Origin: Candidatus Methylomirabilota bacterium | GTDB taxonomy: Bacteria > Methylomirabilota > Methylomirabilia > Methylomirabilales > CSP1-5 | Assembly (NCBI GenBank): GCA_019456075.1 | Contig: VRUN01000010.1 | Span: forward strand, 1-38,093 | Length of the DNA: 38,093 nt | Direction of reading: 5' to 3' | Shown here: positions 8,104 to 36,766 of the stretch, piece by piece | How positions within the stretch are numbered: position 1 is the stretch's first letter | Layout: the number at the start of each line of letters is the position of its first letter | Notes under the pieces: model-generated | What the model was told of the DNA's origin: nothing | The model's database searches: none | The model's input: the letters and a program-made list of their open reading frames with translations, nothing else | Made by a program: the position numbers and the translations under genes

Positions 8104-8220
8104 GTTCACGGTTCACAGTTCACATTAGTGGTTCAGGGTTCAGAGTCCACGGTTCAGAGTTCCATTTCAGAAATCACAAGAAGACCTCATGCCGTGAACC
8201 GTGAACGGTCAATTGTGAAC
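8104..8220 (-). repeat. heptanucleotide repeat element A1 (hairpin)
   Basis: Plus strand GTTCACG GTTCACA GTTCACA (6-nt slip) GTTCAGG GTTCAGA GTCCACG GTTCAGA GTTCCAT, then inverted CGTGAAC CGTGAAC GGTCAAT TGTGAAC; 8101-8116 and 8194-8209 are a perfect 16-bp inverted repeat. Confidence 0.9.
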
Positions 8221-8225
8221 TGATC

Positions 8226-8301
8226 TGGTGGGCCCACCTGGATTCGAACCAGGGACCGTCCGGTTATGAGCCGGTGGCTCTGACCGCTGAGCTATGGGCC
8301 C
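8226..8301 (-). tRNA. tRNA with CAT anticodon, probably tRNA-Ile2 (lysidine-modified)
   Basis: Minus strand GGGCCCATAGCTCAGCGGTCAGAGCCACCGGCTCATAACCGGACGGTCCCTGGTTCGAATCCAGGTGGGCCCA+CCA; full cloverleaf, anticodon loop CTCATAA, encoded CCA; C4-G69, C5-G68 pairs as in TilS substrates. Confidence 0.93.
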
Positions 8302-8306
8302 GTCCT

Positions 8307-8395
8307 GGTTCACGGTTCTCTGTTCACCGTTCACAGAGAATACTCAGCGGATCTCCAGCCGTGAATCGTGAACCGTGAACCGTGAACTGCGAACC
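8307..8395 (-). repeat. heptanucleotide repeat element A2 (hairpin)
   Basis: GGTTCAC GGTTCTC TGTTCAC CGTTCAC - 25 nt - CGTGAAT CGTGAAC CGTGAAC CGTGAAC TGCGAAC. Confidence 0.92.
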
Positions 8396-8409
8396 AGCCC
8401 CCCTGGGGC

Positions 8410-10179
8410 TTAGGATTCCACGAAGCTTCGGAGCTTCCGGCCTCGGGTGGGATGGCGAAGCTTACGCAACGCCTTGGCCTCAATCTGCCGGATCCGCTCC
8501 CTGGTCACGTCGAATTGCTGCCCCACCTCCTCCAGCGTATGATCCACGCCGTCGCCGATCCCGAAACGGAGACGCAGCACCCTTTTCTCCCGCTCGGTCA
8601 GAGTGCTCAGAACCTCATCGGTCTGGCTCCCGAGGTTCACCCCGATGAACGCACCAAGAGGGGAAATCGCCCCCTTGTCCTCAATGAAGTCACCGAGGTG
8701 CGAATCTTCCTCCTCCCCAATGGGAGTCTCCAAGGAGATAGGCTCTTGAGCGATCTTCAGGACTTTCCGGACCTTGTCCACGGGGAGGTCGATCTTCTGG
8801 CCGATCTCCTCCGGGCTGGGTTCCCGACCGAACTCCTGTACCAATTGGCGGGAAGCGCGGATCAACTTATTGATGGTCTCGATCATATGAACCGGGATCC
8901 GGATGGTCCTGGCCTGGTCCGCGATGGCTCGGGTGATAGCCTGACGGATCCACCAGGTGGCATATGTGGAGAATTTATAGCCTCGCTGGTATTCGAACTT
9001 CTCCACGGCCCGCATGAGCCCGATGTTGCCTTCCTGAATCAGATCCAAAAACTGGAGTCCCCGGTTCGTGTACTTCTTCGCAATGGAGATGACCAAGCGG
9101 AGGTTAGCCTCCACCATCTCCCGTTTCGCATTCAACGCCTTCCGCTCCCCCCGGCTGATGGCCTGAAGCAGCGCGTGCATCTCGGTGGAGCTGGTGCCGG
9201 CCTCTTGCTCGACCCGCTGGATCTTCCTGATAATGACCTGGATCTGCCGCGCAAGCTCTTCCAACTTTTCTCGAGGGAACTTCGTCCGCCGGACCAGGGT
9301 CCGCATAGAGACGCCGTTGCCCATGGCGCTCTCACGGAGCACCTTGAAGTTGGGAGCACTCAAGCGCGCGGAACGCCTGAGCTCTTTCATCTCTAGCTCG
9401 GCCCTCCCGATCCGCTCTAAGATGCTCCGCATGCGGGCGACGATCCGTTCGGTGACGCGCTGGTTCAGGTTGAGTTGCCGGAGGCGCTCGGCTTGGTGGC
9501 TCCTTCTCTCTTGGTTTTCTTGGCGCAGGCGGTCCGCCCGCTTTGCGTTCCCTTGATGCTCAGCCCGCTCGAGCCGCTTGGTCAGGTCCTCGATCTTCTC
9601 CTGATCCTGCCGCAGGCCCTTGAGGGATGGCGCAAGCCCTGCAACCAGCTCCCGCTCCTTCTGTTCCGAGACCTCGTCAAAATCGTTGAGGGTGACGAGA
9701 TCGGCCACTCGAAGCCTCCCCTGGAGCAGACGTTCCCCCAAGAAGGTCACCTCACGGACGGCGATCCCTGCCCGGCAGACCGCCTCGGTGACCTCACGGC
9801 GCCCGTCTTCGATCCGCTTGGCGATCCCGATCTCCCCCTCCCGGGAGAGGAGCGGAGTCTTTCCCATCTCCCGAAGGTACATCCGGACCGGGTCATCGGT
9901 GCGACTCACCGGCGCGGGGGACAGGTCCACCTCCACCTCCGACCCACCCGACGGGGACTTCGCCACCTTCTTTTTCGCCCCGGGTCCTCCCGCCTCGCGG
10001 GGGGCATCGATCACCTCGATGTTCATTTCCTCCAAGAGACCGAGGATCCGATCAATCTGCTCGGCCGAGGTGATATCCTCAGGGAGACTGGTGTTGATTT
10101 CCTCGGTAGTCAGGTATCCCTTTTTCTTCCCCAGGGCCGTGAGAACCTTGAGCGCCTCGATTCTCCCCTCGTCTGTCAT
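8410..10179 (-). CDS. rpoD: RNA polymerase primary sigma factor
   Basis: [64 protein letters not shown]-terminal [22 protein letters not shown]. Confidence 0.97.
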
Positions 10180-10197
10180 GCTGCCACTTCCTCCTTC

Positions 10198-11994
10198 TTA
10201 TCCTGCAGAGTCTCTGTGATCCGCCATGCCCCCTGTGCCCATTCCCTTAATATAGTCCGTTTCGGAGGGTCGGCCACCGTAGAGTGCCTGTTTTTCCTCC
10301 AAAAGCGCTTTCACCCGAAGCAGGTCCCCTTGATCCCGCGCTCTCTTGAGCTCCCCCTGGATTTCCTGGAGCTTCAGTCGGATGAGACAGTCCTGCACAA
10401 TCCGATGCGGATCGGCAAACTCTTCCCCACCCTGGACAAACAGCTCAGCCGCCACCTGGCGGACCACGGGATCAGGATGGTGGGTGAGGGTCCGGGCCAG
10501 ATCCTCCTCTTTGCCCGGGTATTCTCGGAGGAACCGGTAGATGGAACGGAGGGGGGATGCCGAAAGCGCTTCGTCCCGGAGGGTCCCCCACACGAGGGGC
10601 CGCATGTCCGGGAAGAGGAGGCATATCTGGATCAAGGCCTTTTCCACTGGGGGGAACTCCAAGGAGGGGGGGGGTCCCGACGTGAGGGGCGACTCCGAGG
10701 TCCCGAGACGGCTAAGCTCCGCCAAGACGACCCTCTCGGATACCTCCAACCGCTCTGCCAGCTTCTGGACATACTTCGCCCTCCGCACCCCCTCTGGCAT
10801 CCGGGCAATGAGCCGCAGGACCTGCCGGGCCGCGGCCGTCTTTTCATCCACGCCCTTCAGTCCCGTCTGCTCCTCTGCCCGGGTGAGGAGAAAATCAACG
10901 AGATCCTGAGCTGCCTCGACCTGCGCCTGGAGGGCATCCCTGCCGTTCTCTCGGACGAAGGTATCAGGATCTTTTCCCTTCGGGAGGATCACCACCGCCA
11001 CCCCCATATCCTCAGCCACCAAGAGCTCCAGCCCTCGCCAGGCAGCCTGGATCCCCGCGGGATCGGGATCAAAGACGAGTATCGCCTTATCCGCATAGCG
11101 GTGCAGAAGGGTCACTTGGTCGCGGGTCAAGGCGGTTCCAAGGGGGGCGACCGTTTGGGGAAAGCCCGCGCCGTGCAGAGAGATGGCATCAAAGTATCCC
11201 TCCACCACCAGGGCCACCCTCGCCTCCCGGATTGCCCGGGATGCCAGATGGAGACCGTACAGGTGCACCCCCTTCTTATAGACGCCGGTTTCGGGGGAGT
11301 TCATATACTTCGGTGGTTGATCTCCCAGCGCCCGGCCTCCGAATCCCACGATCTTTCCCGTGGAATCGGAAATGGGGATCATCAGACGATCGCGAAATCG
11401 GTCGTAGTATCCACGTCCTGCCTGCCGCGGAAGGGCCAGGCCCGCCGCCTCCACTTGGCCCACGGTGAATCCTCGCTTTGTGAGTTCACGGAGTAGCCCC
11501 TCCCACTCCGCGCCAGCGTATCCCAGCTGGAACCGTTCAACGAGGTCCGCGCCGACCCCCCGCCGACTCAGCACTTCCCTCGCCGGGATTCCCCCCGGAC
11601 CTGTCAGGGCTTTCCGGAAGTAGTCACAGGCCAGCCGCTGAAGCTCGTAGATCTTCAGGAGGCCGTCCGCCTGACGGCTCCGCCCTTTCTCCGGAATCGC
11701 GATGCCGGCCCGCTGGGCGAGATGCCGGACTGCCTCGGGGAAGGTAAACCCCTCTCGCCGCATCAAGAAGCGAAAAACATCTCCCCCCTCTGCACACCCA
11801 AAGCAATAAAAGATCTGCCGCTCCGCATTGACGGTGAAGGAAGGGGTCTTTTCCGAGTGGAAGGGGCAGAGGGCTCGGAAATACTTCCCGGCCTGCTTCA
11901 GGGGCAGATAACCCTCGATCACCTCCACAATGCTCGAGGCCTTGAGAATCTGGTCAATCACTTCCTCTGGGATAAATCCCATCTGGCTCCTCAA
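10198..11994 (-). CDS. dnaG: DNA primase
   Basis: Zinc-binding CPFHSEKTPSFTV...CFGC, TOPRIM VVEGYFDAISLHGAG, DPDPAGIQAAWRGLELL. Confidence 0.96.
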   Translation of the reverse strand: MRSQMGFIPEEVIDQILKASSIVEVIEGYLPLKQAGKYFRALCPFHSEKTPSFTVNAERQIFYCFGCAEGGDVFRFLMRREGFTFPEAVRHLAQRAGIAIPEKGRSRQADGLLKIYELQRLACDYFRKALTGPGGIPAREVLSRRGVGADLVERFQLGYAGAEWEGLLRELTKRGFTVGQVEAAGLALPRQAGRGYYDRFRDRLMIPISDSTGKIVGFGGRALGDQPPKYMNSPETGVYKKGVHLYGLHLASRAIREARVALVVEGYFDAISLHGAGFPQTVAPLGTALTRDQVTLLHRYADKAILVFDPDPAGIQAAWRGLELLVAEDMGVAVVILPKGKDPDTFVRENGRDALQAQVEAAQDLVDFLLTRAEEQTGLKGVDEKTAAARQVLRLIARMPEGVRRAKYVQKLAERLEVSERVVLAELSRLGTSESPLTSGPPPSLEFPPVEKALIQICLLFPDMRPLVWGTLRDEALSASPLRSIYRFLREYPGKEEDLARTLTHHPDPVVRQVAAELFVQGGEEFADPHRIVQDCLIRLKLQEIQGELKRARDQGDLLRVKALLEEKQALYGGRPSETDYIKGMGTGGMADHRDSAG

Positions 11995-12050
11995 CGACCC
12001 CAGTCAGAAAGGCAGGGTCTCTCCTCGCTGGGTTGGAACCGGTCCTTTTG

Positions 12051-14456
12051 TTATTGCTCCCTCAACGTCACAACGGTGGCGCCGCTCCCCCCTTCGTTCA
12101 TTTCGGCCAGGTGAAACCCCCCCACGAAGGGATGCCCGGTCAAAAATTTGTGGACCCCCTTCCGGAGTGCCCCCGTCCCCTTGCCATGAATCACCAGGAC
12201 TCGCGAAAGACCCTCGAGAAAAGCCGCGTCCAAGTACTTTTCTAGACGCCGCGTTGACTCGTCGACGGTGCAACCGACGAGGTTGATTTCAGCGGAACTG
12301 GACTCGGCCTTTTCCACGAAGAGTGGCGCCGCGCCGCGCGGCCTTTCAGAAGTCGCGGCGAGGGTAAGGGTCGTGACGGGTACATGAACCCTGCCTACGT
12401 GCAGTTCTACTTCTACGGTCCCCTGGGGAGAGACCCCGGTTAGGACCCGCCCTTGCCGCCCCAGCCCCGCGACAGTCACCCATTGGCCGGGTCCAATCTC
12501 CACACCGGCCAAAGAACCATCGGGCTGGGGTATCTCGGCCGCTTCGACGGTTGCCTTCAGCCCCTCGAGCCCCTGACGAAAGGCCCGGATCTCGTCTGGC
12601 CGAACCCCCCGGTCTCGGAGCGCCCCGATCAGACCTTCCCCCTGCTGACGGAGTTCAGCGAGGAGCTGCCTCGCTTCCTCCCGTACTCGACGTTTGAGGT
12701 CCTTGACCCCCGCCCGAAGCCGCACCACTAGCCCCTCCGCTTCTCTCCTGAGGGTCGAGGCCTGCCGGACCTCTTCCTGAAGCCGAGCCTTGAGGCCGTC
12801 AAAGACCCGGCGGTCCCGCTCGAGGGTTTCGATGAGGGCCTGGGTTTTTCGGTGTCCCTCGGGGAGGAGTTCGCGTGCCTTGTCCAAGATCCGACGCGGC
12901 AGGCCGAGACGTCCGGCGATCTCCAGTCCATAACTCTTTCCCGGCAGACCCAGCCGGATGGTGTACTCTGGGCTCAGACGTTCGAGATTGAACTCGACAC
13001 TGGCGTTTTCCACTCCAGGCGTGAGGGCCGCAAAGGACTTGACCGCATCCAGATGCGTGGTGGCGATCACCGACGCCCCACACTCTTGGAGAGCCTCGAG
13101 AATGCCGATGCCGAGGGCAGCCCCCTCCGAGGGATCCGTCCCGGCCCCAAGTTCATCGAGGAGGACTAGGGTCTCGGGTCCCGCATGGGCCAGAATCTTG
13201 ACGACCTGACTCAGGTGGGAGGAAAAAGTACTCAGGCTCTGTTCAATACTCTGCTCATCCCCGATGTCGGCGAAGACGGCCCGGTAGCAAGGAACCTCGC
13301 TGTCCGGAGAGGCCGGGATCGGGAGGCCAGACAGGGTCATCAGGGTAAGAAGACCAGCGGTCTTGAGCGCCACGGTCTTTCCACCCGTGTTCGGCCCGGT
13401 AACGACCAGCACAGTGAACGCTCCCCCCACCTCAATGTCAATGGGGACCGGCGCGGGCCGTGCCTCGCCCCGGGCCTCTCCAGTCCCTTCCGCCCCGCTC
13501 ATTCCTCCAGGTGGGGGACCTAGTGCGAGGAAGGGATGACGGGCCCGACGCAGGATAAGGCGGCGGCCCTGGGTGACTCGGGGAATGTCAGCCTCCAGGC
13601 GGACTGCCAACCGCCCCTTGGCTATTAGAAGGTCTAAGTCGCCCAGAAGTTCCACGAGTGCCCCGAGGGTTTCCGCGTCTCGCCCGACCTGTGCTGTCAG
13701 GGACCGAAGGACTTTGGTCACTTCTTCCTCTTCCTGGCGCAGTAGGATCCGCAGCCGGTTGTTCATCTCCACCACCGGGCTCGGCTCCAGGAAAAGGGTC
13801 AGGCCACTTCCTGACTGATCTTGGACGATCCCCCGGATCTTGGCTTTCGCAGCAGACTTCACGGGGATGACGTATCGGTTATTGCGAAGCGTGACGATTG
13901 GTTCGGCGAGGGCCGCTCGGTAGACCGGGGAGACAAGATACCGCTCGAGCTTCGCGATGATCGCCGCTCGAAGGGACCGCAGTTCACGCCGAACCCCTTG
14001 AAGCCCTGGGCTGGCCGCATCGGCCACTTCCCCCTCTGGCGTAATGGCTTCCCCAATCACAGCGCAGAGGGCCTCGGGGGGAACGAGGCCGCTCGCTCGT
14101 TTCCAGAGGAGGGGCGCCGCATCCCGCTCTCGCTGGAAAAAGCTTCGCAGCCGGCGGGCCGCCACCAGGAATTCATGGATCTGCCAGAGGGAGCGCGGCT
14201 CAAGCGAGGCCCCCTCGATTTTGGCGCGGTTGAGATGGGGGCGGATGTCGGTAACCCCCCTGTAAGGGGGCTCCTCACCCCTGAGCAGCAGGTCCTTTGC
14301 CTCCCCCGCCTCGGCAAGGGCCTCCTGTATTTGCTGAAGACCCTCCAGAGGGTGAACCGCAGGCGCCCGCTCCTTGCCGAGAGGGGTAACCGCCGCTCCC
14401 TGGAGAAAATCGAGGATTCCGGCGAACTCTAGCCCCGTCCGTGAACGGTCATCCAT
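12051..14456 (-). CDS. mutS2: endonuclease MutS2
   Basis: VTGPNTGGKTVALKTAGL, LLDELGAGTDPSEGAALG, C-terminal Smr domain VLVIHGKGTGALRKGVHKFL. Confidence 0.95.
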   Translation of the reverse strand: MDDRSRTGLEFAGILDFLQGAAVTPLGKERAPAVHPLEGLQQIQEALAEAGEAKDLLLRGEEPPYRGVTDIRPHLNRAKIEGASLEPRSLWQIHEFLVAARRLRSFFQRERDAAPLLWKRASGLVPPEALCAVIGEAITPEGEVADAASPGLQGVRRELRSLRAAIIAKLERYLVSPVYRAALAEPIVTLRNNRYVIPVKSAAKAKIRGIVQDQSGSGLTLFLEPSPVVEMNNRLRILLRQEEEEVTKVLRSLTAQVGRDAETLGALVELLGDLDLLIAKGRLAVRLEADIPRVTQGRRLILRRARHPFLALGPPPGGMSGAEGTGEARGEARPAPVPIDIEVGGAFTVLVVTGPNTGGKTVALKTAGLLTLMTLSGLPIPASPDSEVPCYRAVFADIGDEQSIEQSLSTFSSHLSQVVKILAHAGPETLVLLDELGAGTDPSEGAALGIGILEALQECGASVIATTHLDAVKSFAALTPGVENASVEFNLERLSPEYTIRLGLPGKSYGLEIAGRLGLPRRILDKARELLPEGHRKTQALIETLERDRRVFDGLKARLQEEVRQASTLRREAEGLVVRLRAGVKDLKRRVREEARQLLAELRQQGEGLIGALRDRGVRPDEIRAFRQGLEGLKATVEAAEIPQPDGSLAGVEIGPGQWVTVAGLGRQGRVLTGVSPQGTVEVELHVGRVHVPVTTLTLAATSERPRGAAPLFVEKAESSSAEINLVGCTVDESTRRLEKYLDAAFLEGLSRVLVIHGKGTGALRKGVHKFLTGHPFVGGFHLAEMNEGGSGATVVTLREQ

Positions 14457-14474
14457 TCCCTATATGGCTCCGGG

Positions 14475-14509
14475 GAAAAATCGAGGGACCCCTTGCGGAG
14501 TCCCTCGAT
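14475..14509 (-). terminator. rho-independent terminator between yqeY and mutS2
   Basis: Minus strand ATCGAGGGACTCC-GCAA-GGGGTCCCTCGAT followed by TTTT. Confidence 0.85.
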
Positions 14510-14542
14510 CCATCTTGAACTTCGCACCCGGTTGTGGATGGG

Positions 14543-14995
14543 TCATGCCCCCCCCGAAAGCTCCTGCCGTACCAGGTGGCTGACCTCTTTTCCGTCAGCC
14601 CGCCCAGCGACTTGAGGCATCAGATAGGCCATCACCTTTCCTATGTCCTTCACTGATGCGGCCCCCGTAGCGGCAATCGCCTCCCTCGCCTTGGCCAAAA
14701 GCTCCTCGGGGGTCATCGCCTTGGGCAGGAGTTTCTCGAGGACTTGGAGTTCCGCCTCTTCTCTGAGGACGAGGTCCTCGCGCCCTCCGCGGCGGAACTG
14801 CTGGATGGATTCTCGCCGTTGGCTACTTTCCTTGACGATGAGCTGCAGGATTTCGGGCTCGGTCAGTTCTCCCCGCTTTTCCACTTCGCGAGTCTTGATG
14901 GCGTTGAGCAGCAGACGAAGGGTCGAAGTCTCCACTTTCCCGCCGGCCTTCATGGCCGCCCGAAGGTCCTGATGAAGGCGGGCCTTTAGATCCAT
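14543..14995 (-). CDS. yqeY: GatB/YqeY domain-containing protein
   Basis: LKARLHQDLRAAMKAGGKVETSTLRLLLNAIKTREVEKRGELTEPEILQLIVKESSQRRESIQQF. Confidence 0.92.
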   Translation of the reverse strand: MDLKARLHQDLRAAMKAGGKVETSTLRLLLNAIKTREVEKRGELTEPEILQLIVKESSQRRESIQQFRRGGREDLVLREEAELQVLEKLLPKAMTPEELLAKAREAIAATGAASVKDIGKVMAYLMPQVAGRADGKEVSHLVRQELSGGA

Positions 14996-14996
14996 C

Positions 14997-15191
14997 TTAC
15001 TCGATCACACGCATCTTCTTTAGCATCTTCTTCCGGGGAGCGATAGCCTTCTTCTTGCGGCGGACGCTCGGCTTTTCATAGTGCTGCCGCCTCCGCGTCT
15101 CTGAGAGCACCCCAGCCTTCTCCACCTGCTTCTTGAAGCGCCTCAGGGCATTTCCGAAGCTCTCGTCCTCCCGGACAAGCACGGCCCTCAC
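14997..15191 (-). CDS. rpsU: 30S ribosomal protein S21
   Basis: [46 protein letters not shown] start at 15191 with AGGAGG 8 nt upstream. Confidence 0.93.
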
Positions 15192-15299
15192 CCCTGACAC
15201 CTCCTAACTTGTATTTATTTTTCCAATAGCTGCTATCGGTAAAAGCAAGGACATCTGAGGAATTATACGTCTAAAGACTAACAGATCCCAGCCCTTTTG

Positions 15300-16019: not shown

Positions 16020-16037
16020 AACAACCCTCCTTTGCTT

Positions 16038-16140
16038 CGATGACCGACGTCCGCAATTCGATGACCGATGACCGACTACCGATGACCGTTAGAACCTAGA
16101 GGACTTTTTCCGTCGTCGGAATACGGTCGTCGGGTCATCG
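16038..16140 (-). repeat. heptanucleotide repeat element B (hisIE/hisF junction)
   Basis: CGATGAC CGACGTC CGCAATT CGATGAC CGATGAC CGACTAC CGATGAC CGTTAGA, then inverted GTCGTCG GAATACG GTCGTCG (+1) GTCATCG. Confidence 0.9.
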
Positions 16141-16148
16141 GCGCGGCC

Positions 16149-16979
16149 CTAGGGGCGCACGGCGATGCCGCGCCCTCTCAGGTACGCCTTAGCTTCGGGT
16201 ACGGAGATTTCCTGAAAGTGGAAGATGGAGGCCGCCAGGGCCGCATCAGCCTTCCCGACCGCAAAGGCCTCGTAGAGATGCTCCACCGTCCCGGCACCGC
16301 CTGAGGCGATCACCGGAACCGCCACACGCTCGGCAACCGCTGCGGTCAGTTCCAAATCGTACCCGTCCCGCGTTCCGTCACGATCCATGCTGGTCAGGAG
16401 GATCTCCCCCGCCCCCAACACCACTCCCTGCTCTGCCCATTGTACTGCGTCCAGACCGGTAGGCGTGCGACCTCCGTGAATAAATACCTCCCAGCGTGGA
16501 GCAAGGGCTGAGGGCTGAGGGGTGAGGGGTGAGGGGTCCGGTGGTGACTCTGGACTCTCGACTCTCCACTCTGGGCGTCGTTTGGCGTCGATAGCCACAA
16601 CGATGCACTGACTTCCGAACCGCTCCGCGGCCTCTCGGACGAGACTCGGGTTTTGGACCGCCGCGGTGTTGAGCGAGACCTTATCTGCCCCAGCGAGGAG
16701 GAGGGCCCGGATATCCTCAAGATCCCGAATGCCACCCCCTACGGTGAGGGGGGTAAAGGCCCGTTCGGCCGTTTTTTTGACGACGCCGATCAGAATCTTC
16801 CGGCGTTCGGCCGACGCGGTGATGTCGAGGAAGACCAGTTCATCGGCCCCCTCTCGATCGTACCGTTCGGCAACCTCTGCTGGATCTCCCGCGTCCCGGA
16901 GGTCCACGAATCGGGTCCCCTTGACCACCCGGCCATCCTTGACATCCAGGCAGGGGATGATGCGTCTTGCTAGCATCAA
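16149..16979 (-). CDS. hisF: imidazole glycerol phosphate synthase subunit HisF
   Basis: [67 protein letters not shown]; carries an internal repeat-encoded insertion. Confidence 0.96.
16504..16571 (-). repeat. heptanucleotide repeat element C, in-frame within hisF
   Basis: Plus strand AGGGCTG AGGGCTG AGGGGTG AGGGGTG AGGGGTC then GACTCTG GACTCTC GACTCTC CACTCTG; translates within [21 protein letters not shown]. Confidence 0.9.
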
Positions 16980-17729: not shown

Positions 17730-17818
17730 GAAGGCTGGAACGCTAGAATGCCCGGAGGGTCGGACGATTGGCTGTGCTCTGCCTTCTAGCCCTCTCGCCT
17801 GCTAGCCTTCCAGCACTC
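17730..17818 (-). repeat. octanucleotide repeat hairpin element F (hisA/hisH junction)
   Basis: AGCTAGAA GGCTGGAA CGCTAGAA TGCCCGGA ... CTTCTAGC CCTCTCGC CTGCTAGC CTTCCAGC; 8-nt period rather than 7. Confidence 0.8.
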
Positions 17819-17833: not shown

Positions 17834-18478
17834 TTACTTGTGGGCCAGTCTGCCAAAATTGGCGAGAATCTGGAGGCCCAGGGCCTGGCTCTTTTCCGGA
17901 TGAAACTGGGTGGCAAAGAGATTGTCCCGCCAGATCATGGAGGTGAAGGGAATCCCATATTCCGTAATGCCGGCAATCGTGCCTTCCTCCTCTGGCTCCA
18001 CGTAGTAAGAGTGCACGAAGTAGAAGTACGAACCGTCCGGGATCCCTTTCATGATCGGCGCTTCTCGCTTCAGATGCACCTGGTTCCACCCCATATGGGG
18101 CACTTTTAGGACTGAGGGCTGAGGGCTGAGGGCTGAGGGAGGGACGGCATTGGGGAAGCGGCGCACCCGTCCTCGGATCAGATCCAGGCCCTTATGGAGG
18201 CCGAACTCCTCGCTCTCTGAAAAGAGAAAATGGAGGCCGAGACAGATCCCCAAGATTGGTTTCCCGGATTGGATTCCCCGGAGCAGGGGATCGATGAACC
18301 CCGCCGCCTCCAGTGTCGCGATCCCGTCGGCGAACGCCCCCACGCCCGGGAGAACGATCCCTGCCGCGTCGCGGAGCTGGCGAGACTCTCTGACCACTTG
18401 GGCAGGGACCCCGGCCTTTTCGAACCCCTTCTCGACGCTTCGGAGATTGGCAATCCCGCTGTCGATAATGGCAATCAT
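17834..18478 (-). CDS. hisH: imidazole glycerol phosphate synthase glutaminase subunit HisH
   Basis: IIDSGIANLRSVEKGFEKAG, VLPGVGAFADG, PILGICLGLHFLFSESEE, VPHMGWNQV; carries a short in-frame repeat insertion. Confidence 0.96.
   Translation of the reverse strand: MIAIIDSGIANLRSVEKGFEKAGVPAQVVRESRQLRDAAGIVLPGVGAFADGIATLEAAGFIDPLLRGIQSGKPILGICLGLHFLFSESEEFGLHKGLDLIRGRVRRFPNAVPPSALSPQPSVLKVPHMGWNQVHLKREAPIMKGIPDGSYFYFVHSYYVEPEEEGTIAGITEYGIPFTSMIWRDNLFATQFHPEKSQALGLQILANFGRLAHK
18109..18143 (-). repeat. heptanucleotide repeat element D, in-frame within hisH
   Basis: GGACTGA GGGCTGA GGGCTGA GGGCTGA GGGAGGG; translates as PPSALSPQPSV. Confidence 0.9.
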
Positions 18479-18483
18479 GCTTG

Positions 18484-18525
18484 GCTCAGGGTTGAGGGTT
18501 GAGAGTTGAGGGCTCAGAGTTCACC
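18484..18525 (-). repeat. heptanucleotide repeat element E (upstream of hisH)
   Basis: GCTCAGG GTTGAGG GTTGAGA GTTGAGG GCTCAGA GTTCACC. Confidence 0.88.
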
Positions 18526-18733
18526 CACCCACAAGCCGGCGAGGGAAGTAAGTCCTGAGGAAGGCGGAATCTGGTTTGCGGGCGACTCCGAACAGGTTCG
18601 GAGAGCGTAGCGCAGGCGGGGGTGGTCGTCCTGATGCCGCATGATTCGCTCGGCGCGGAACACAGAGACTTCATCACAGCAACCCGTGAAATTTTCCGCC
18701 GACGAAGGATGCTTCCCGAGCCGGCTTTCCCCA

Positions 18734-23534: not shown

Positions 23535-23555
23535 CGCAGTTCTCCCTCTTCGGTG

Positions 23556-25026: not shown

Positions 25027-25049
25027 CGCGCGTGGACCTGCACACCACC

Positions 25050-26417
25050 TTACGTGTTCATCGAGCGCAGAAATTCCGCGTTGTCTTTGGTCTCGGACAG
25101 TTTCCCCTGGAGGAGCTCCATCGCCTCGACCACCCCCATGGAGGCCAGGACCTTCCGGAGCACCCACATCCGATTCAGCTCTTCCTGGGTCAGGAGCAGC
25201 TCCTCCTTCCGGGTCCCGGACCGGAAGATGTCGATGGCAGGAAACATTCGCTTATCCACTAAGCGCCGGTCCAAGTGCAACTCCATATTCCCGGTCCCCT
25301 TGAACTCTTCAAAGATCACATCGTCCATCCGGCTGCCGGTATCGACCAAGGCCGTCGCGATGATGGTGAGAGATCCTCCCTCTTCGGTGTTCCGGGCAGC
25401 CCCGAAGAAGCGCTTGGGGCGCTGCAGGGCGTTGGCGTCGACCCCTCCCGAGAGAACTTTGCCGCTCGGCGGACAGACGGCGTTGTAGGCGCGGGCGAGT
25501 CGGGTGATCGAGTCGAGCAGGATGACCACAGCCCGCTTGTGCTCCACGAGACGTCTCGCCTTTTCCAAGACCATCTCCGACACCTGGACGTGGCGACTGG
25601 CCGGCTCGTCAAACGTCGAGCTAATCACTTCCGCCTTCACCGATCGCTGGAAATCGGTCACTTCTTCCGGGCGCTCATCGATCAGGAGCACGATGAGAAA
25701 CACCTCCGGGTGATTCTTGGTGATGCTGTTCGCAATCTTTTGAAGCAGGATCGTCTTCCCGGTCCGGGGCTGCGCCACGATGAGTCCCCGCTGCCCCTTC
25801 CCGATGGGCGTGATCAAATTCATGACCCGCATGGCGACCTCATCCCCGGTGGTTTCGAGGCCGAGCCGCTCGTCCGGAAAGAGAGGGGTCAGACTATCGA
25901 AGAGGATCTTGTCTTTGATCGCCTCGGGGTTTTCAAAGTTCACGGCCTCCACCTTGAGAAGGGCAAAATACCGTTCCCCCTCCTTCGGTGGGCGGACCTG
26001 GCCTGACACGGTATCGCCGGTCCTCAGATCGAAACGCCGGATCTGGGATGGGGAGACATAGATATCATCGGGCCCCGGAAGGTAGTTATAGTTAGGCGCC
26101 CGGAGGAAGCCGAAACCATCCGGGAGGACTTCCAAGACTCCTTCGGCAAAGATGAGCCCGTTCTTTTCCGCCTGCAGCTCTAACACTTTGAAAATGAGTT
26201 CCTGCTTCCGGAGGGCGCTGGCGCCTACCAAGCCCAGGCCGCGCGCAATAGCAGTGAGTTCAGGGATAGTCTTCTCGGTTAACTCCGCCAAATTCATCAG
26301 ACCTTCGCGAGGAGGCTCCTTGACCACATCTCGGGTCATGTCCTTTGTCTCCCTCGTCTCTTTCCCCTCTTTGGTCGCCTCCTTGGCGGCTTCGGTGGTA
26401 TGGCGTTGGGACGGCAT
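25050..26417 (-). CDS. rho: transcription termination factor Rho
   Basis: Rho N-domain [76 protein letters not shown]; start could be internal at MNLAEL. Confidence 0.96.
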
Positions 26418-28507: not shown

Positions 28508-28515
28508 GACTTGCC

Positions 28516-28634
28516 GTCCAACGTCCAAAGTCCACAGTCGTGCGAAATGCAACGTCCGAGGCGCAACATCAGTTGAAAATCGTTCGTTGGCATTTGACCT
28601 TGGACTTTGGACATTCGACTTTGGACATTAGCAA
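28516..28634 (-). repeat. heptanucleotide repeat element G (dnaJ/rsmE junction)
   Basis: GTCCAAC GTCCAAA GTCCACA GTCGTGC ... TTTGACC TTGGACT TTGGACA TTCGACT TTGGACA. Confidence 0.9.
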
Positions 28635-28677
28635 GTTTCGCGGGAAGATCTGACGAGGAAAAAAGCGGGAAATCGAT

Positions 28678-29775
28678 TTAGCCGCCTAAGAGCTCCCGGA
28701 CCCTTTCGAAGAAGCCCTTGCTCAGGGGAGTTCCCTCCCCGTTATCGAGGCGATGAAGCTCCTCCAGGAGCTCCCGCTGCTTGGGCGTGAGGCGGCTCGG
28801 AATCTCTACCAAGACCTTGACTCTGAGGTCTCCCCGGCCGTAGCCCCGAAGACTTGGAAGGCCGTATCCGCCGAATCGAAATTCCGTGCCTGGTTGGGTC
28901 CCAGGAGGAATGTGAATGGGGATCATCCCGTTGAGAGTGGGAACCTGGGCGTCGCCCCCCAAGGCAGCCTGGGTGAAGGCGATCGGGACTTCACAGATCA
29001 AATCATCCCCCTCCCGATGGAAAATCGGGTGCTCCGCCACATGGACCTCCACGTACAAATCACCGGCGGGTCCTCCTCTGATCCCTGCCTCCCCCTCGCC
29101 ACTGATTCGGAGCCGCGTCCCGGTCTCCACCCCTGGGGGGACCTTCACCTTCACCGTCCGCTCCGTTACGATCCGGGCCTCCCCTCGACACGCCCGGCAG
29201 GGGGACCCGATAACGTTCCCCTCTCCTCCGCAGCGACGACAGGTCTGACTGACCGTGAGAAAACCTCTGGAAAACCGGACCTGGCCTCTCCCGCGGCAAT
29301 CCGGACAGGTGGCTGCCCGGGTCCCCGGCTGAGCCCCGGTCCCCCGACAGCTTTCACACGCCTCCAGTCGGGGAACGAGAATCTCCTTCTTTGCCCCCTT
29401 CGCAGCTTCCTCTAAGGTTACGGAGAGGTTATAGCGGAGGTCGGCCCCCCGGTGGGTGGCGCTCCGCGTGCCGAATCCTCCAAAGAACCCTCCCAGGATG
29501 TCCTCAAAAATCCCTCCGAACCCCACACCGAAATCGGACGCCTCGGTTATCCGGGGACCCCCCACGGCCCCATACAGGTCGTATTCCTGCCGCCGCTCAG
29601 GTTCCGACAAGACCTCGTAGGCTTCGTTGATTTCCTTGAACTGTTCCGCCGCCGCAGGGTCGTCGGGATTCTTATCGGGATGGAACCTCAAGGCCAGGCG
29701 GCGATAGGCCTTCTTGATCTCTTCAGGGGAGGCTCTTTTGGAAACCCCAAGAATCTGGTAGAAGTCTTTACTCAC
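28678..29775 (-). CDS. dnaJ: chaperone DnaJ
   Basis: J domain [34 protein letters not shown], zinc-finger CXXCXGXG repeats. Confidence 0.96.
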
Positions 29776-30394
29776 CGGCTTTCACCTCCGAGCGGCTTTC
29801 TGCCTCCCCGGGACGGGCCGGACCGGTGGACACCTTGACCAGGGCGGGGCGGAGGACCTTTTGGTCTAGCAGGTACCCCCGGAGAACCTCCTCTACGACG
29901 GTGTTCTCGGGATAGTCCGTCGTCCGCACCTGCTCCACGGCGTGATGCACGGTGGGATCGAACTCCCGTCCGACGCTCTCGATTTCCTTCACCCCTTCCT
30001 TTTCGAGCACCCCTTTGAAGAGACGGAGGGTGATTTCTACCCCTTCGATCACGGCCTCGTTTGCTCCAGACGACACGGCGGACGCACGCGCGGCGGCCAG
30101 GGCGCGCTCGAGATTATCCAGCACCGGGAATAACTCTATGAGCAGATCCTCGTGCGCGGTTCGGATCAGCTCGGCCCGCTCCCGGACGACCCGCTTCCGG
30201 TAATTATCAAACTCAGCCGCCAGGCGAAGATACCGGTCCTGAAGCTCCTCGATCTCTTTTGCCTGGGCCGCGACCTTCTGCGACAACCCCTCCTCCGGGG
30301 TCATCTCCTCCGGTAGCACTGGTCCCTCGGACACGGGGATGACCTGCCCCTTCTCTTCCGAGCCGAACTCCTCTTCCCGCCGCTCCTCGGACAT
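29768..30394 (-). CDS. grpE: nucleotide exchange factor GrpE
   Basis: [52 protein letters not shown]-like C-domain. Confidence 0.94.
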
Positions 30395-30460
30395 CTCCAA
30401 TTCCCCTGAAGGCACAAAAGGCGAGAGAGAATCCTCCCGCCCTCGAGATCCCAGCGTTCG

Positions 30461-31507
30461 CTACGAGGCGACTTCCGTCAAGTGCCGGCTCACCAGCTTC
30501 GCGGTAAAGTCCACGAGGGGGATGATTCGGCTGTACTCCATCCGGGTCGGACCGATCACCCCGAGCGTCCCCAGAAGGTGCTCCCCACACCAATACGGGG
30601 CCGTCACCAGACTCAGGTCTTGCAATTCTCGGATGACGTTTTCCGAGCCGATGATTGTGGTCAACGCCTCTTGGGTCAAACATTGGTCGAGGATCTTCAC
30701 GAGCTTCGACGTCTCCTCGAAGGCCGCAAAAATCGAACGCATCTTCTCGACATCGGCAAACTCTGGCTGATCCATGATGTTGGCGGTCCCGCCGATGTAG
30801 ACTTCTCCCTCCATGTCTCCCGCAAAGCTCTTCTGCCCCAGCTTGAGGGCCCGGCGGAGGAGTTCGTCATACATCGCCTTTTCCTCAGCCATCTTCTTCA
30901 CGAGAAGCTGCCGCACCCGAGAAAGGGACAACCCCTCCACCAAGGTGTTGAGTAGCCTGGCAATCTTATTCAACTCGTCCTGGGGAATCACCTCGTCAAG
31001 GATGACCATGCTATGATGGACCTGCCCGGACGTGGTAATCAGGATAACCAGGACCCGCTCCCCTGCCAGGTGGAAGAACTCGATTCGCTTGACCGCCAAC
31101 TGGTCCACCCGAGGTACGAGGACCACTCCGACCGACCGCGAGAGGCCAGAGAGCAGCTTCGAGGCTTCACGCATCAGGTCCTCCACTTCCCCTTGGGGGG
31201 GACGGAATTTCCTCTCGATCATGCTCTCCTCTGCCCGGGTGAGCGGGCGCCGACTCATCAGGCTGTCGACGTAGACTCGGTACCCCAGGTCAGTGGGAAC
31301 CCTGCCCGCGGAGGTATGGGGCTGGTCGAGATACCCGAGCTCCGCCAGATCGGCCATGATATTCCGAATGGTCGCCGGACTGAGTCGGAACCCGTATTTC
31401 CGCGCAACGCTTCGGGAGCCGACGGGCTCAGCACTCGAAATATAATCCTGAATGATCGCCCGCAGGACGTCCCGTTCCCGTTCGGTCAACCCGGCTGACG
31501 TGCCCAT
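30461..31507 (-). CDS. hrcA: heat-inducible transcription repressor HrcA
   Basis: LTERERDVLRAIIQDYISSAEPVGSRSVARKYGFRLSPATIRNIMADLAELGYLDQPHTSAGRVPTDLGYRVYVD. Confidence 0.96.
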   Translation of the reverse strand: MGTSAGLTERERDVLRAIIQDYISSAEPVGSRSVARKYGFRLSPATIRNIMADLAELGYLDQPHTSAGRVPTDLGYRVYVDSLMSRRPLTRAEESMIERKFRPPQGEVEDLMREASKLLSGLSRSVGVVLVPRVDQLAVKRIEFFHLAGERVLVILITTSGQVHHSMVILDEVIPQDELNKIARLLNTLVEGLSLSRVRQLLVKKMAEEKAMYDELLRRALKLGQKSFAGDMEGEVYIGGTANIMDQPEFADVEKMRSIFAAFEETSKLVKILDQCLTQEALTTIIGSENVIRELQDLSLVTAPYWCGEHLLGTLGVIGPTRMEYSRIIPLVDFTAKLVSRHLTEVAS

Positions 31508-31576
31508 CGGTACACCTCGCGCTCGTCCCGATCAGACAGCTTGCCAAGGGCTCTGGACAAGCCCATATTCGTCGAT

Positions 31577-31677
31577 CGGATCGGGGTTAGCCCCGATCCG
31601 AAATTCTGCCGTGATCTCTAAAGGAGCCAATACACCTCGATCTCGGGCTCCGCGGAGGCCATCCGAGGTGCTGGCTC
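31577..31677 (-). promoter_or_regulatory. structured 5' leader of hrcA (two strong stem-loops)
   Basis: CGGATCGGGG-TTAG-CCCCGATCCG at 31577-31600; GAGCCA/CACCTCG (31624-31639) pair with CGAGGTG/TGGCTC (31664-31677). Confidence 0.55.
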
Positions 31678-31699
31678 TCAATCTTCCTTCGGATCGGGG

Positions 31700-31726
31700 C
31701 TAGCACTCTCATCTTATGAGTGCTAA
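31700..31726 (-). promoter_or_regulatory. CIRCE operator
   Basis: CTAGCACTC-TCATCTTAT-GAGTGCTAA versus consensus TTAGCACTC-N9-GAGTGCTAA, one mismatch. Confidence 0.93.
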
Positions 31727-31740
31727 TTCCTCGCACCACG

Positions 31741-31769
31741 AAGATAAAAAGCAGCCCACCCCTTGTCAA
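31741..31769 (-). promoter_or_regulatory. sigma70 promoter of the hrcA-grpE-dnaJ operon
   Basis: Minus strand TTGACA - 17 nt - TATCTT directly upstream of CIRCE. Confidence 0.75.
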
Positions 31770-31811
31770 GGGGAAAGGGGGTTGCCCTTGGACGGTGCAC
31801 TTCGGACATTT

Positions 31812-32486
31812 TTAGTCGATGACCTTGCCGATCCGATTCCAGCGCGGCCCCCCCTCCTGCGAGTCCCAGGACCAGTATATGACGAACGCCTCCCCCTCCA
31901 CCTTGTGGATGTCCAGAAAGCCCCAAAACCGGCTATCTTGGCTATGGTCCCGGTTGTCGCCGAGGACAAAGAGCTTGTCCATCGGCACGGTGATCGGCCC
32001 AGAGAAGCCTCCGACCGAATGGGGATTCGCAGGTCGTGCCGAGTCCTCGTACATGGCGTGGGACTCCCCCAGCGGCTTGTTATTGATGTACACCTGGTTC
32101 CCGCGAACCTCCACCACCTCTCCCGGGAGTCCGATGACTCGCTTGATGAAGTCGCGACTCTCATCATTGGGATACTTGAAGACGATGATATCCCCCCGCT
32201 CCGGAGCCCAGGGGCCGAGGATCCACGTATCAAGCACGGGGATGCGGATCCCGTAAATAAACTTGTTCACCAGGATATGGTCCCCAACCACCAGTGACGG
32301 TATCATGGACCCGGAGGGGATCTTGAACGCTTGGACCACGAAGGTCCGGATGAACAAGGCCAAGAGAACGGCAACGACCAGCGCTTCTATCCACTCCCGG
32401 GTGGCTGATTTTTGCCGCCCGCGGACCTCCACGCCCGCCGTTTCCTCCACTCCCACTCGCGTCTCGTGTTCCTGCCCGCGATCCAT
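31812..32486 (-). CDS. lepB: signal peptidase I
   Basis: FKIPSGSMIPSLVVGDHILVNKFIYG, RGDIIVFKYP, DFIKRVIGLPGE, LGDNRDHSQDSRFWG. Confidence 0.96.
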   Translation of the reverse strand: MDRGQEHETRVGVEETAGVEVRGRQKSATREWIEALVVAVLLALFIRTFVVQAFKIPSGSMIPSLVVGDHILVNKFIYGIRIPVLDTWILGPWAPERGDIIVFKYPNDESRDFIKRVIGLPGEVVEVRGNQVYINNKPLGESHAMYEDSARPANPHSVGGFSGPITVPMDKLFVLGDNRDHSQDSRFWGFLDIHKVEGEAFVIYWSWDSQEGGPRWNRIGKVID

Positions 32487-32524
32487 CTCTTTCCCTTCTC
32501 CGATGCGCGGGGCGCGTCGTCCGA

Positions 32525-34372
32525 TTACGCCTCGCCGGAACCCTTGGTCCCCCGGAACCCGCCCTCTCCCCCCCGCATGGTCAGAACGGCCATAAAAGCC
32601 TCCTGGGGAATCTCCACGCGCCCCACCTGCTTCATCCGCTTCTTCCCCTCCTTCTGCCGCTCCAACAGCTTGCGCTTTCGGGTCACGTCACCCCCGTAGC
32701 ACTTGGCGGTGACCTGTTTGCGGAGGGGCTTGACGTTTTCCCGGGCGATGATCTTCCCCCCGATCGCGGCCTGGAGCACCACCTCAAAGAGTTGTCGGGG
32801 GATGAGATCCCGGAGTGTTGCGACCAGCTGTCGCCCCCGGTGATAGGCCTGATCTTGATGCACGATGGCAGACAAGGCATCCACCGGCTCCCCGTTGACG
32901 AGGATATCCAGCTTGACGAGATTCGCTTCCCGGAAATCGATCAGCTCATAATCCAGCGAGGCATACCCCCGGCTGAGCGATTTAAGCCGGTCGTAGAAAT
33001 CGAGGACGATCTCGGCCAAGGGGAGATCATAGGTCACGACGATGCGGTGATCCTGCTGATATTCCAGGCCGACTTGAACCCCCCGCTTCTCTTGGCACAG
33101 GGTGAGGACCGGACCCACGTACTCCACCGGAGCCATGATCATGGCCCGAATGTACGGTTCTTCGATGCCAACGACCCGCTCGCGGGCGGGAAGACGAGAG
33201 GGGTTGTCCACTTCCACCAGCGCCCCGCCGGTGAGTCGGACCCGGTAGACAACGGTCGGAGCAGTGGTCAAGAGTTCCACGTCGAATTCTCGCTCTAATC
33301 GCTCCTGGACGATCTCGAGATGGAGCAGTCCCAAGAAACCAGACCGAAAGCCAAATCCCAGAGCCGCCGAGGTCTCTGGCTCAAAGGTAAAGGCCGAGTC
33401 GTTGAGCCGCAATTTCTCCAAGGCCTCCTTGAGGCGAAGATAGTCTCCCCCTTCCACCGGATAGAGCCCGGCAAAGACCATCGGCCGGACCTCACGAAAG
33501 CCCGCGAGGGGGGCAGATGTGGGCCGGTCTGCCTCAGTGATGGTATCCCCGACCCGGACCTGACGCACATCTTTTATCCCCGCCGTGAGATACCCGACCT
33601 CTCCTGCGTGTAACATCGGGACCGGTCGCATGTGTGGGGAGAAGACCCCCACCTTGCTCACCTCGAACGTGACACCACTCGACATGAGGCAAATCCGGAG
33701 CCCCGGCCGGACCAGCCCGTCCACCACGCGGATATAGGCAATCACCCCCTGGAAGGGATCAAACCAGGAATCAAAGACCAATGCCTTGAGGGGCGCGCCG
33801 GGATCTCCCTGCGGTGGGGCGATACGCGCGACGATCGCCTCAAGGATCTCCTGAGTCCCGATCCCCTCCTTGGCGCTGCAGAGGATCACCTCGGACGGAT
33901 CGAGCATCAGGGTGTCTTCCATCTGCTGTGTGACGCGGGCCACGTCGGCGATGGGGAGGTCGATCTTGTTGACCACTGGAATGGGGGTGAGGTTGTGCTC
34001 ACGGGCCAGGTGGAGATTGGCCAGCGTCTGCGCCTCAACGCCCTGAGAGGCATCCACCACCAAGAGGACCCCCTCGCAGGCGCTCAAGGCCCGGCGGACT
34101 TCATACGTAAAGTCGACATGCCCCGGTGTGTCGATCAGGTTGAGGGTGTACCCCGTCCCCTCCCGCGATTCATAAGAGAGCCGGACGGCCTTGGCCTTGA
34201 TGGTGATCCCTCGCTCCCGCTCCAGCTCCATCTGGTCCAGGACCTGCTCGCGCATCTTTGGTGCCGGGACGGTCCCTGTATACTCCAGGAGTCGATCGGC
34301 CAACGTGGACTTCCCGTGGTCGATGTGAGCGATAATGGAGAAGTTCCGAATATACTTCGGGTCATGACTCAT
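32525..34372 (-). CDS. lepA: elongation factor 4
   Basis: [58 protein letters not shown] at 34372. Confidence 0.97.
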
Positions 34373-34424
34373 CGCGGGTTCAAGGGCTGGGGCTTCGAGT
34401 CTTGGAGACGGCATCCACGACCCA

Positions 34425-35402
34425 TCACCACTTCCGCTCGGCGATGAAATCCACCAACATCTCGAGGGACCGCCGGGCGGCCGTGTCAGCAAAGGGGACT
34501 AGCTGTTCCCGCGCTTTGCCCACGTGTCTCCTGGCCTCTTCCACCGTCGCATCGACCCCGCCCCCCTCCGTCACATACCGACGAATCGTTTCCACCTCGG
34601 CCTCCCCCACCTGTCCATCACAGAGGAGACGGCGGATTTCATCCCGCTTTGGGCTCCGGTCCCGGTGGAGGACGTGAATCAGAGGATAGGTTACCTTCCC
34701 CTCCAACAGATCGTTTCCCACAGGCTTTCCGAGGACCTCTTCACTGGCCGCGAAGTCCAAGGCATCGTCCACGAGCTGAAAGCCGATCCCCAGGTTCAGG
34801 CCGAACTCCGTCAAGGCTTCCACCCGCGTTTCGTCCACTCCCGCAATCAATGCCCCCGTCCGGCACGCGGCGGAGAAGAGGGCCGCCGTCTTGCAAGTAA
34901 TGACCATAAGATAGTCCTCGTACAGAATGTCGGGATTCCGGTGCCACTTGAGTTCCAAGATCTCCCCTTCGGTCATCGCCACGGTGGCGTCCGCGAAGGC
35001 TTTGAGGATACGGAAGTCCCCATCACTCACCAGCCGCAGAATCGAGTGTGAGTACAAAAAGTCGCCCGCGAGGACCGAGACGTGGGGGCCCCATCTGGCA
35101 TGAGCTGACGGCTGGCCCCGGCGCTTTTGGGCGTTATCGATAATGTCGTCATGAATGAGGGTGGCGACGTGCATAAACTCGGCCACCACCGCCAAATCGA
35201 CGGCCCGCTCTCCGCCTTCGCATTCGCACACCCGAGTGGAGAGAAGGAGGAGGGCAGGCCGCACCCGCTTTCCGCCGCTACCGAGCACATACGTGGTCAC
35301 CTCGGAGATGAGGTCAGCGCGGCTCGAGATCCTCGCCTGAATTCTCCGTTCGACCTCAGCTAACTCTTTCGCGACCGGGGCGAAGACGAGTTCACGCAAC
35401 AC
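34425..35402 (-). CDS. polyprenyl synthetase family protein
   Basis: [50 protein letters not shown] start at 35402 with upstream GAGGAG. Confidence 0.92.
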
Positions 35403-35515
35403 GGAGTGAGCTCCTCGCGCAGAGGCCTCCCGCGCGACATCGCGGCCGCGCGGCCCGTTGGGCAACGCCGTCCACCATAGCACAGGGACACATCGCGTTC
35501 AACACCCATCAAGAG

Positions 35516-35612
35516 GTTCAGAGTTCAGGGTCCATGGTTCATGGTTTAGAGTTTTCAGAAAGAAATCGCGAAGTTGCCCTGAACGATGAACCCTGGCCCA
35601 TGAACTATGTGA
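35516..35612 (-). repeat. heptanucleotide repeat element H (downstream of the PAP2 gene)
   Basis: GTTCAGA GTTCAGG GTCCATG GTTCATG GTTTAGA GTTTTCA ... CCTGAAC GATGAAC CCTGGCC CATGAAC. Confidence 0.88.
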
Positions 35613-36138
35613 GGCGCTTTTCCGCTCCACGCATGAGGCGGATGAACATGGCAGCGCAGATCAGGCCCACAAGGACCCCGCCTACCACATCGGCTGGATA
35701 GTGAACCCCGACATAGACCCTGGAATACCCCACCGCAGCGGCCACCAGGAGGAGGGGGATCGCCAAGATCCGGTAGGAATAGGCAAAAAGGACGGCCTGG
35801 GCCGTGACATTCGTGGCGTGACTCGAAGGAAAGGAGAAAGGGCTCCCATTACAGCTGACGAGGACACGCACAGCCTCCAGGGCCTGACAGGGCCGAGGGC
35901 GCTGGAACCAATGCTTGAGCAACTCGCTCACCCCATACGAGACGACAAACAGCAGCAAGGCCATGACGACCACGACCCGTCCCTTTCGATCTCCCCAGAC
36001 GAGTAGCCCGATTCCCCCGACGGCAAGAAAGAGGAGGAGAGGACCGGGATCGGTGATAGCCGGCATGAGACGATCGAAGACAGCATTGCTGAGATCACTG
36101 TTGATCACCCGAAAGATGGTGAGGTCAAGACCAGACAT
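35605..36138 (-). CDS. PAP2 family phosphatase
   Basis: KHWFQRPRPC, SFPSSHATN, YSRVYVGVHYPADVVGG; start at MSGLDLTIF. Confidence 0.88.
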   Translation of the reverse strand: MSGLDLTIFRVINSDLSNAVFDRLMPAITDPGPLLLFLAVGGIGLLVWGDRKGRVVVVMALLLFVVSYGVSELLKHWFQRPRPCQALEAVRVLVSCNGSPFSFPSSHATNVTAQAVLFAYSYRILAIPLLLVAAAVGYSRVYVGVHYPADVVGGVLVGLICAAMFIRLMRGAEKRLT

Positions 36139-36208
36139 CACGCGTCCCGCTTCGCCAGGAGAAAGATGGACCGGTGTGTCACCACGAGTCTTTTTCCGTG
36201 GCCCACCC

Positions 36209-36587
36209 TCACTCCTCAACCGGTCTGCGGAACACCTGACGGACTGCGTAGACCGGGTTGCCTTGCGATTCGTGATAGACCCGGACCAAGAGCTCTCCCA
36301 ACAGCCCCAGGACGATGAGCTGGACCCCCCCGATCGCGAGCGGGACAGTGAGCAGGAGGAGGGGACGGGTGCCGATATCGTGTCCCCCCACCACCGGAGA
36401 CGACCTAGTTGGCGATTCGAGAGGGGAGTCGCCGGCTCCCCTCATCCACCAGGACCACCTCGTAGGGGAGGCCGAGGGGATCCCAGGCCTCTCCAATGGC
36501 GCTCCCCAGGGGGCGCAGGTTTTTCTCCTCGTTGACCCCCGGGATCACGAGAGAAAGGGGGAGGGTTTGGGATGGATCAGGGTTCAT
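36209..36587 (-). pseudogene. remnant of a family 2 glycosyltransferase (internal deletion)
   Basis: N-terminal piece LSLVIPGVNEEKNLRPLGSAIGEAWDPLGLPYEVVLVDEGSR then stop; C-terminal piece RPLLLLTVPLAIGGVQLIVLGLLGELLVRVYHESQGNPVYAVRQV in another frame; middle absent. Confidence 0.78.
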
Positions 36588-36614
36588 GGTTCAGGGTTTC
36601 GGAGTTACAGTTTA
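36581..36614 (-). repeat. heptanucleotide repeat element I1
   Basis: GGTTCAT GGTTCAG GGTTTCG GAGTTAC AGTTTAG; contains the start codon of the glycosyltransferase remnant. Confidence 0.7.
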
Positions 36615-36738
36615 GGGGCCACGATCACTGTGTGGACCCTGACAAAAGAAATCGCGGACCGCGCAGTCCATAGGAAGGGGTCCGCTCAACTTGGCGAGAT
36701 GCTACCACACCCCACTTCCGTGTCCAGCGCTTTGTTTT

Positions 36739-36766
36739 GGTTCACGGTTCACAGTTCACGGTTCAC
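36739..36766 (-). repeat. heptanucleotide repeat element I2
   Basis: GGTTCAC GGTTCAC AGTTCAC GGTTCAC. Confidence 0.9.

Follow-up and report, generated by a model that had tools for sequence, protein, structure and literature searches.

A stretch of 38,093 nucleotides from a Candidatus Methylomirabilota genome (assembly GCA_019456075.1, contig VRUN01000010.1, positions 1–38,093 of the forward strand; hereafter the window) contains short arrays of tandem 7 nt units and, at one locus, 8 nt units, several of which are arranged as inverted-repeat hairpins. These arrays are probably the terminal repeats of small mobile elements, or hairpins derived from them that lack a gene; the gene-bearing form consists of an array, a gene of the S23 family and an inverted array, and the elements are relatives of the intervening sequences (IVSs) of 23S rRNA. 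The arrays are associated with S23 genes, their unit corresponds to the S23 protein, they share one architecture, they turn over at orthologous sites, and at one such site a gene-bearing element in one genome is exchanged for a hairpin in another. The S23 (IVP) family has solved structures and no assigned function, and the heptamers long known from cyanobacteria, Xanthomonas and Beggiatoaceae have had no cause assigned to them. If the two are halves of one element, the protein subfamily should predict the repeat unit and the unit the protein, so that both can be tested together; the elements would also be a rapid source of change for intergenic regions, operons and even loops of enzymes, HisF being an example.

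S23 genes between inverted arrays

The exchange was found between two genomes of approximately 97% identity: G006 carries array, S23 gene and array where G003 carries a short GTTCA hairpin. The gene encodes a four-helix-bundle protein of the S23/23S-rRNA-IVS family (PF05635, TIGR02436). In a search of the phylum, PF05635 scored above the cut-off in 25 of the 31 array-bearing genomes, in none of the four genomes of family f3 and in one of 59 others. This one S23-positive genome among the array-poor others (G089) has octad ends on its S23 gene. A first-pass annotation of the window had proposed looking for a co-distributed polymerase, reverse transcriptase or transposase; S23 genes show such a co-distribution and the Y1 transposase does not.

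Arrays were scored as both-sided when arrays of the same period lay within 200 bp on either side, and 65 distinct S23 genes had enough flanking sequence for this test. Both-sided arrays were present at 48 of these; among controls, 23 of 1169 open reading frames (ORFs) had them, as did 7 of 387 small ORFs and 5 of 850 windows placed at random. Where a locus had two heptad arrays, the inverted alignment was better than the direct one in 25 of 35 cases. Many of the S23 genes without heptads have octads, one has nonads and one has hexads. The array unit tracks the S23 protein (Mantel r = 0.61, p = 2 × 10−4), also across host families: proteins that are more than 60% identical and come from different host families have array similarities of 0.45–0.71, against 0.07 for distant proteins. 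The TCAGC-flanked proteins of families f1 and f6 fall into a single clade (support 95) with 75–77% identity, and their relatives on viral contigs, 64–67% identical, have TCGGC units. The repeat period is likewise clustered on the protein tree, with six changes.

The same arrangement is found in other phyla. On named plasmids, whose hosts include cyanobacteria, Azospirillum and Gemmatirosa, 21 S23 genes were inspected (the 16 best matches, near-duplicates being skipped, and five weaker ones) and 20 lie between inverted arrays; the period is 7 nt in 15 of them (one being of low complexity), 8 nt in four and 9 nt in one. All six viral-contig relatives have TCGGC-NN ends, two of them as judged by eye. 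Automatic thresholds were passed by 18 of 22 loci (the first 16 plasmid loci and the six viral ones), and the remainder were judged by eye. The viral-contig search yielded these six array-bearing loci from one query, a weak match from another and none from three further queries; no S23-type genes were found in phages. On plasmids, and in lineage f7, which is otherwise array-free, the arrays lie within tens of bases of both ends of the S23 gene. The first-pass annotation had set the arrays apart from cyanobacterial repeats with few fixed units, a contrast that does not hold, as cyanobacterial S23 genes also bear many different units. On three cyanobacterial plasmids (L408, L414 and L416) array-ended S23 genes stand inside CRISPR-Cas operons (cas6–S23–cas4; cas10–S23–cmr3).

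The predicted structure of one S23 protein (predicted local distance difference test score 96.6) matches XCC0516 of Xanthomonas (2gsc; template-modelling score, TM, 0.93), the nearest solved relative of these proteins, and BT_0352. It also matches Avd of diversity-generating retroelements (TM of about 0.81–0.84), to which there is a weak profile match as well.

Architecture, abundance and turnover of the arrays

Arrays were detected by lag-7 self-similarity (28 comparisons, threshold of at least 20 matches), and genome-wide figures come from pattern searches and contig samples. The main sample comprised 20 contigs (185 kb) of the window's genome, picked by contig number and not by content; a separate sample of 180 kb had been selected for containing GTTCACGG and is biased. 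The window holds 12 period-7 arrays, with none in shuffled sequence and 0–1 at other periods. The 185 kb sample holds 25, or 13.5 per 100 kb, with none in shuffles and at most four at any other period. The first-pass annotation had staked its proposal on a genome-wide period-7 excess over a shuffled intergenic control; the window and the sample both show an excess over shuffled sequence. The arrays do not reduce to one or a few fixed heptamers, each genome having many units that differ by locus and species, and the earlier description of one architecture with many units holds for the whole genome and throughout an order. Of the 35 genomes of this order, 31 have TCAGC-NN arrays, as do three of 59 others; the four members of the order without them constitute family f3, in which period-7 arrays are scarce (one in 68 kb). 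There were none in the f7/f8 sample (84 kb). Among the array-bearing genomes is a complete one (G026), a single contig of 2,752,854 bases. Arrays are located between genes or within them, including in frame (hisF), with few of them in gaps between divergent genes (6 of the 61 array-bearing gaps are of this kind, against 107 of the 414 array-free ones, p = 0.003).

The typical unit genome-wide has five fixed and two variable bases. The variable pair was adjacent in 78 of the 138 arrays from sampled relatives that had a clear pair (one third expected, p = 2 × 10−8); the skeleton GNYNANN suggested previously is not general, and five conserved plus two adjacent variable positions is the common pattern. 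In the TCAGC arrays of the genus, the free bases are any base followed by a purine in 183 of 195 units, with even use of the four letters at the first position; adjacent units do not share their dinucleotides above chance (9 identical versus 15.4 expected). A hairpin consists of about four units, a loop and about four reverse units, with a median loop of 20–35 nt in the main families; in GTTCA hairpins the number is exactly four in 26 of 36 5′ arms and 27 of 36 3′ arms. Polarity is fixed (79 versus 1), and related copies are dispersed as whole hairpins, loop included. Perfect palindromes can be dismissed, the dinucleotides of facing units matching below the permuted level (24 of 282 versus 43.2, P = 0.0005).

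The first-pass annotation had called for orthologous junctions to be compared between close strains, and this comparison revealed unit switching. Synteny of the his operon extends over about 25 genomes. In most members of families f1, f2, f4 and f6, the same his junctions and the same site in a HisF loop bear arrays, with differing units. The two arms of the HisF array co-vary over 22 genomes (permutation p = 5 × 10−5), but mismatch in the window's own HisF. G003 and G006 differ in the unit of their HisF array (GTTCAGG in one genome, GTCCAAA in the other), and the change falls at the borders of the insertion. Few sites diverge as much as the arrays over the approximately 55 kb compared between these two genomes: some arrays are identical, some have gained units, some are rewritten and at least four have changed to another unit family. 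Small whole-unit changes also occur.

Period-7 arrays are also present in HisF of two Omnitrophota (L030 and L069); those of L069 form an inverted pair in the same loop, and the HisF loop is long in several further phyla. The hisH–hisA junction of G026 (L126, about 12080–13886) has a partial hisH duplication and a 1.2 kb insertion. A palindromic element of a different kind, approximately 200 bp long (CTAGCCCAGATTATTCAC...GTGAATAATGCGGGCTAGG), varies in presence between close species; this was noted for L330 (G006, C134) and for G003, which has many diverged copies, and also for G004 and G005, where the junctions concerned are orthologous to window positions 23535–23555 and 25044–25060.

Arrays of the window and their S23 counterparts

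No ORF of the window matches PF05635 or TIGR02436, and its arrays are gene-less. Several nevertheless resemble the ends of S23 elements found in other genomes. The ACCGA array (16038–16140) matches the flanks of S23 gene L345 (43 and 31 versus 14 for shuffled sequence). The GTTCA arrays match the flanks of S23 genes L381, L379 and L356, the best match of array 8097–8222 being L381 (36 versus 13 shuffled), and the octad array resembles both flanks of S23 gene L375 of G003 (20 versus 14 shuffled). Since the window has no S23 gene, its genome has only a remnant of one, and array sequences match the flanks of L345, L381 and L375, the window arrays are read as gene-less derivatives. Complementary ends are found both as inverted arrays around S23 genes and as hairpins in the window and its genome, and end sequences are shared for the ACCGA, GTTCA and octad units, not for GTCCAAA. 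The S23 ORF inside the element is present in the gene-bearing relatives and absent from the window. Unlike rRNA IVSs, the window arrays lie in protein operons and beside a tRNA gene, and not in a helix of 23S or 16S rRNA.

Every array listed in the first-pass annotation was recovered at its position, including the octamer array. Two GTTCANR heptad hairpins enclose the minus-strand gene of tRNA-Met(CAT) (8226–8301), which was the sole match in an Rfam scan of the window. One, at 8097–8222 with arms at approximately 8097–8167 and 8182–8222, lies between an ORF (7371–8102) and the tRNA gene; the other, at 8303–8402, has four units, a 28 nt loop and five units and lies between the tRNA gene and rpoD. 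The ACCGANR (CGATGAC) heptad hairpin at 16038–16140 separates hisF from hisIE. Within hisF itself (16149–16979, minus strand), an array of GGGCTGA/GGGGTGA units followed by GACTCTC units (16486–16588) forms an in-frame insertion of 23 residues in the loop between ..AIDAKR and WEVF... The GGGCTGA units of the hairpin previously proposed at 16504–16571 are real on one side, but GACTCTC lies opposite and the arms mismatch. An octad hairpin of unit GCTAGAAN is located between hisH and hisA (17730–17818). The gene hisH (17834–18478, minus strand) contains an in-frame array of unit CTGAGGG (18106–18154), which has the same length but a differing unit across seven relatives, and a GTTGAGG heptad array lies at the start of this gene (18475–18529).

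A GTCCAAA heptad hairpin (28515–28639) follows dnaJ. The GTTCAGR/GTTCATG heptad hairpin at 35516–35612 has a polyprenyl synthetase gene on one side and a PAP2 gene on the other; in G001 this site is occupied by an array of AGTCC type. A degenerate GTTCANR array (36563–36614) and a GTTCACG heptad array with one arm only (36727–36772) complete the set. For the arrays listed earlier at 18109–18143, 18484–18525 and 36739–36766, no obvious inverted partner arm was seen, contrary to the hairpin arrangement claimed. Separately, repeats of the GATCGGGGTTAGCACTCTC type were noted at 31508–31715, upstream of 31507, and are possibly an inverted repeat resembling CIRCE (controlling inverted repeat of chaperone expression).

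Alternatives, possible mechanism and known systems

Some observations weigh against reading the arrays as parts of S23 elements. The both-sided test is failed by 17 of the 65 S23 loci, although inspection by eye reveals octads, nonads or short arrays at several of these, and one of the 21 plasmid loci, that of Pseudanabaena PCC 7367, has no arrays. No S23 partner for the GTCCAAA or GAGAGTC units was found in the sampled S23 flanks. The window's genome has many arrays and S23 only as a 36-residue remnant, and the complete genome G026 has many arrays and no S23 gene, so that action in trans would require a past or lost source in both. Neither a target-site duplication nor a clean empty site was defined.

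S23 genes might instead be passengers that insert into, or survive near, arrays made by another process. The greater number of arrays than of S23 genes, and the array-bearing genomes without an intact S23 gene, would fit this explanation, which is nonetheless unlikely given that the unit type tracks the S23 subfamily across distant hosts and that arrays closely bracket the gene on plasmids and in f7. A purely local origin, by slippage with a 7 nt preference and template switching between the arms of quasi-palindromes, would need no element at all. It could account for perfect short arrays, for units gained or lost singly or in pairs between close species and for the co-varying HisF arms, and among the long repeats of bacteria, heptamers are reported to be the commonest class (PMC4679880). 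We consider it quite improbable, as neighbouring units keep the pentamer and not the dinucleotide, facing dinucleotides match below chance, polarity is fixed, arrays are replaced wholesale, whole hairpins are dispersed with their loops, and the S23 association would be left unexplained. Slippage synthesis had been one option of the first-pass annotation; its other option of a non-autonomous element gains support from the gene-bearing counterparts with matching ends.

Two further models have very little in their favour. Hairpins like REPINs (paired repetitive extragenic palindromic, REP, sequences), moved by a REP-associated tyrosine (Y1) transposase, would be comparable in being dispersed, about 85–100 nt long and rare in divergent gaps. 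Y1 genes (PF01797) are, however, absent from five array-bearing genomes (G000, G024, G027, G010 and G034), a lack of co-distribution that speaks against this transposase as the partner of the arrays, and a REP-type sequence tag is lacking. Operator- or centromere-like arrays for ribbon-helix-helix proteins share period 7, a five-base core and both direct and inverted orientations; in pSM19035, 7 bp WATCACW repeats are used and at least four contiguous repeats are needed (PMC9499535). Such a model, with one core for one protein, fails on the many cores per genome, the switching of unit identity at one site, the arrays in coding sequence and the S23 association, and is scarcely credible here.

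Each S23 subfamily pairs with its own unit of five fixed and two free bases (6, 8 or 9 nt in other subfamilies), and if the arrays are indeed parts of S23 elements, the S23 protein may bind these units and act in trans. The trp RNA-binding protein binds repeated triplets; by analogy, the repeated cores could be bound with the two free bases as spacers. A 5+2 unit would fit a ring-shaped pentamer recognizing the core at regular spacing, and the Xanthomonas S23 structure is a ring of five four-helix bundles (PMC4990558). Copying may proceed through RNA, perhaps turned into DNA by a cellular reverse transcriptase, as hinted at by the Avd-like fold. Short derivatives of about four units, a loop and about four units would then spread and replace each other at tolerated sites, namely downstream of genes, at the junctions within operons and inside loops of proteins, HisF among them. 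In its broadest form, this proposal is speculative: heptamer and octamer arrays throughout bacteria might all belong to a single large class of mobile elements with one gene each, whose ends they would be. A pentameric four-helix-bundle protein would read its own 5+2 code on RNA or single-stranded DNA around its ring, a cellular reverse transcriptase would copy the elements through RNA, and gene-less hairpins would quickly remodel the sequence between genes and in the loops of proteins.

No paper was found in literature searches for the repeat strings, and those on S23/IVS with heptamers found the Coxiella IVS paper discussed below alone; neither a general heptad/octad rule nor a unit–protein correspondence was found in the literature searched. 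With Avd, S23 proteins appear to share a fold, to judge from the structure prediction; Avd works with an adjacent reverse transcriptase gene, whereas none was seen beside S23 genes, although no search was aimed at one. REPINs and their transposases (PMC3116915) provide a parallel in their non-autonomous palindromic derivatives, single-gene partner and species-specific sequence, and differ in protein family, hairpin sequence and recognition pattern. The GGGAATC repeats of Xanthomonas and GGGGAYT repeats of Nostoc (PMC4692102) are likewise intergenic heptads of species-variable length, often arranged as convergent pairs in Xanthomonas; they have been treated as G-quadruplex repeats of one unit, in a paper that draws no link to S23. 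The TAACTGA repeats of Beggiatoaceae (PMC4679880) and the short tandemly repeated repetitive sequences of cyanobacteria are also short tandem intergenic heptamers, but with one or a few fixed units that are mostly direct, for which a translational role and no gene has been proposed. A close likeness is to the 23S rRNA IVS of Coxiella burnetii (PMC4990558), which has been called selfish and has an S23/IVP four-helix-bundle ORF between complementary ends; three tandem GACAGAT heptamers, variable in number between strains, stand just before this ORF at the 5′ side. Known IVSs are located in rRNA genes and excised by RNase III, whereas the arrays described here occur in many copies between and inside protein genes, as gene-less hairpins and with many different units.
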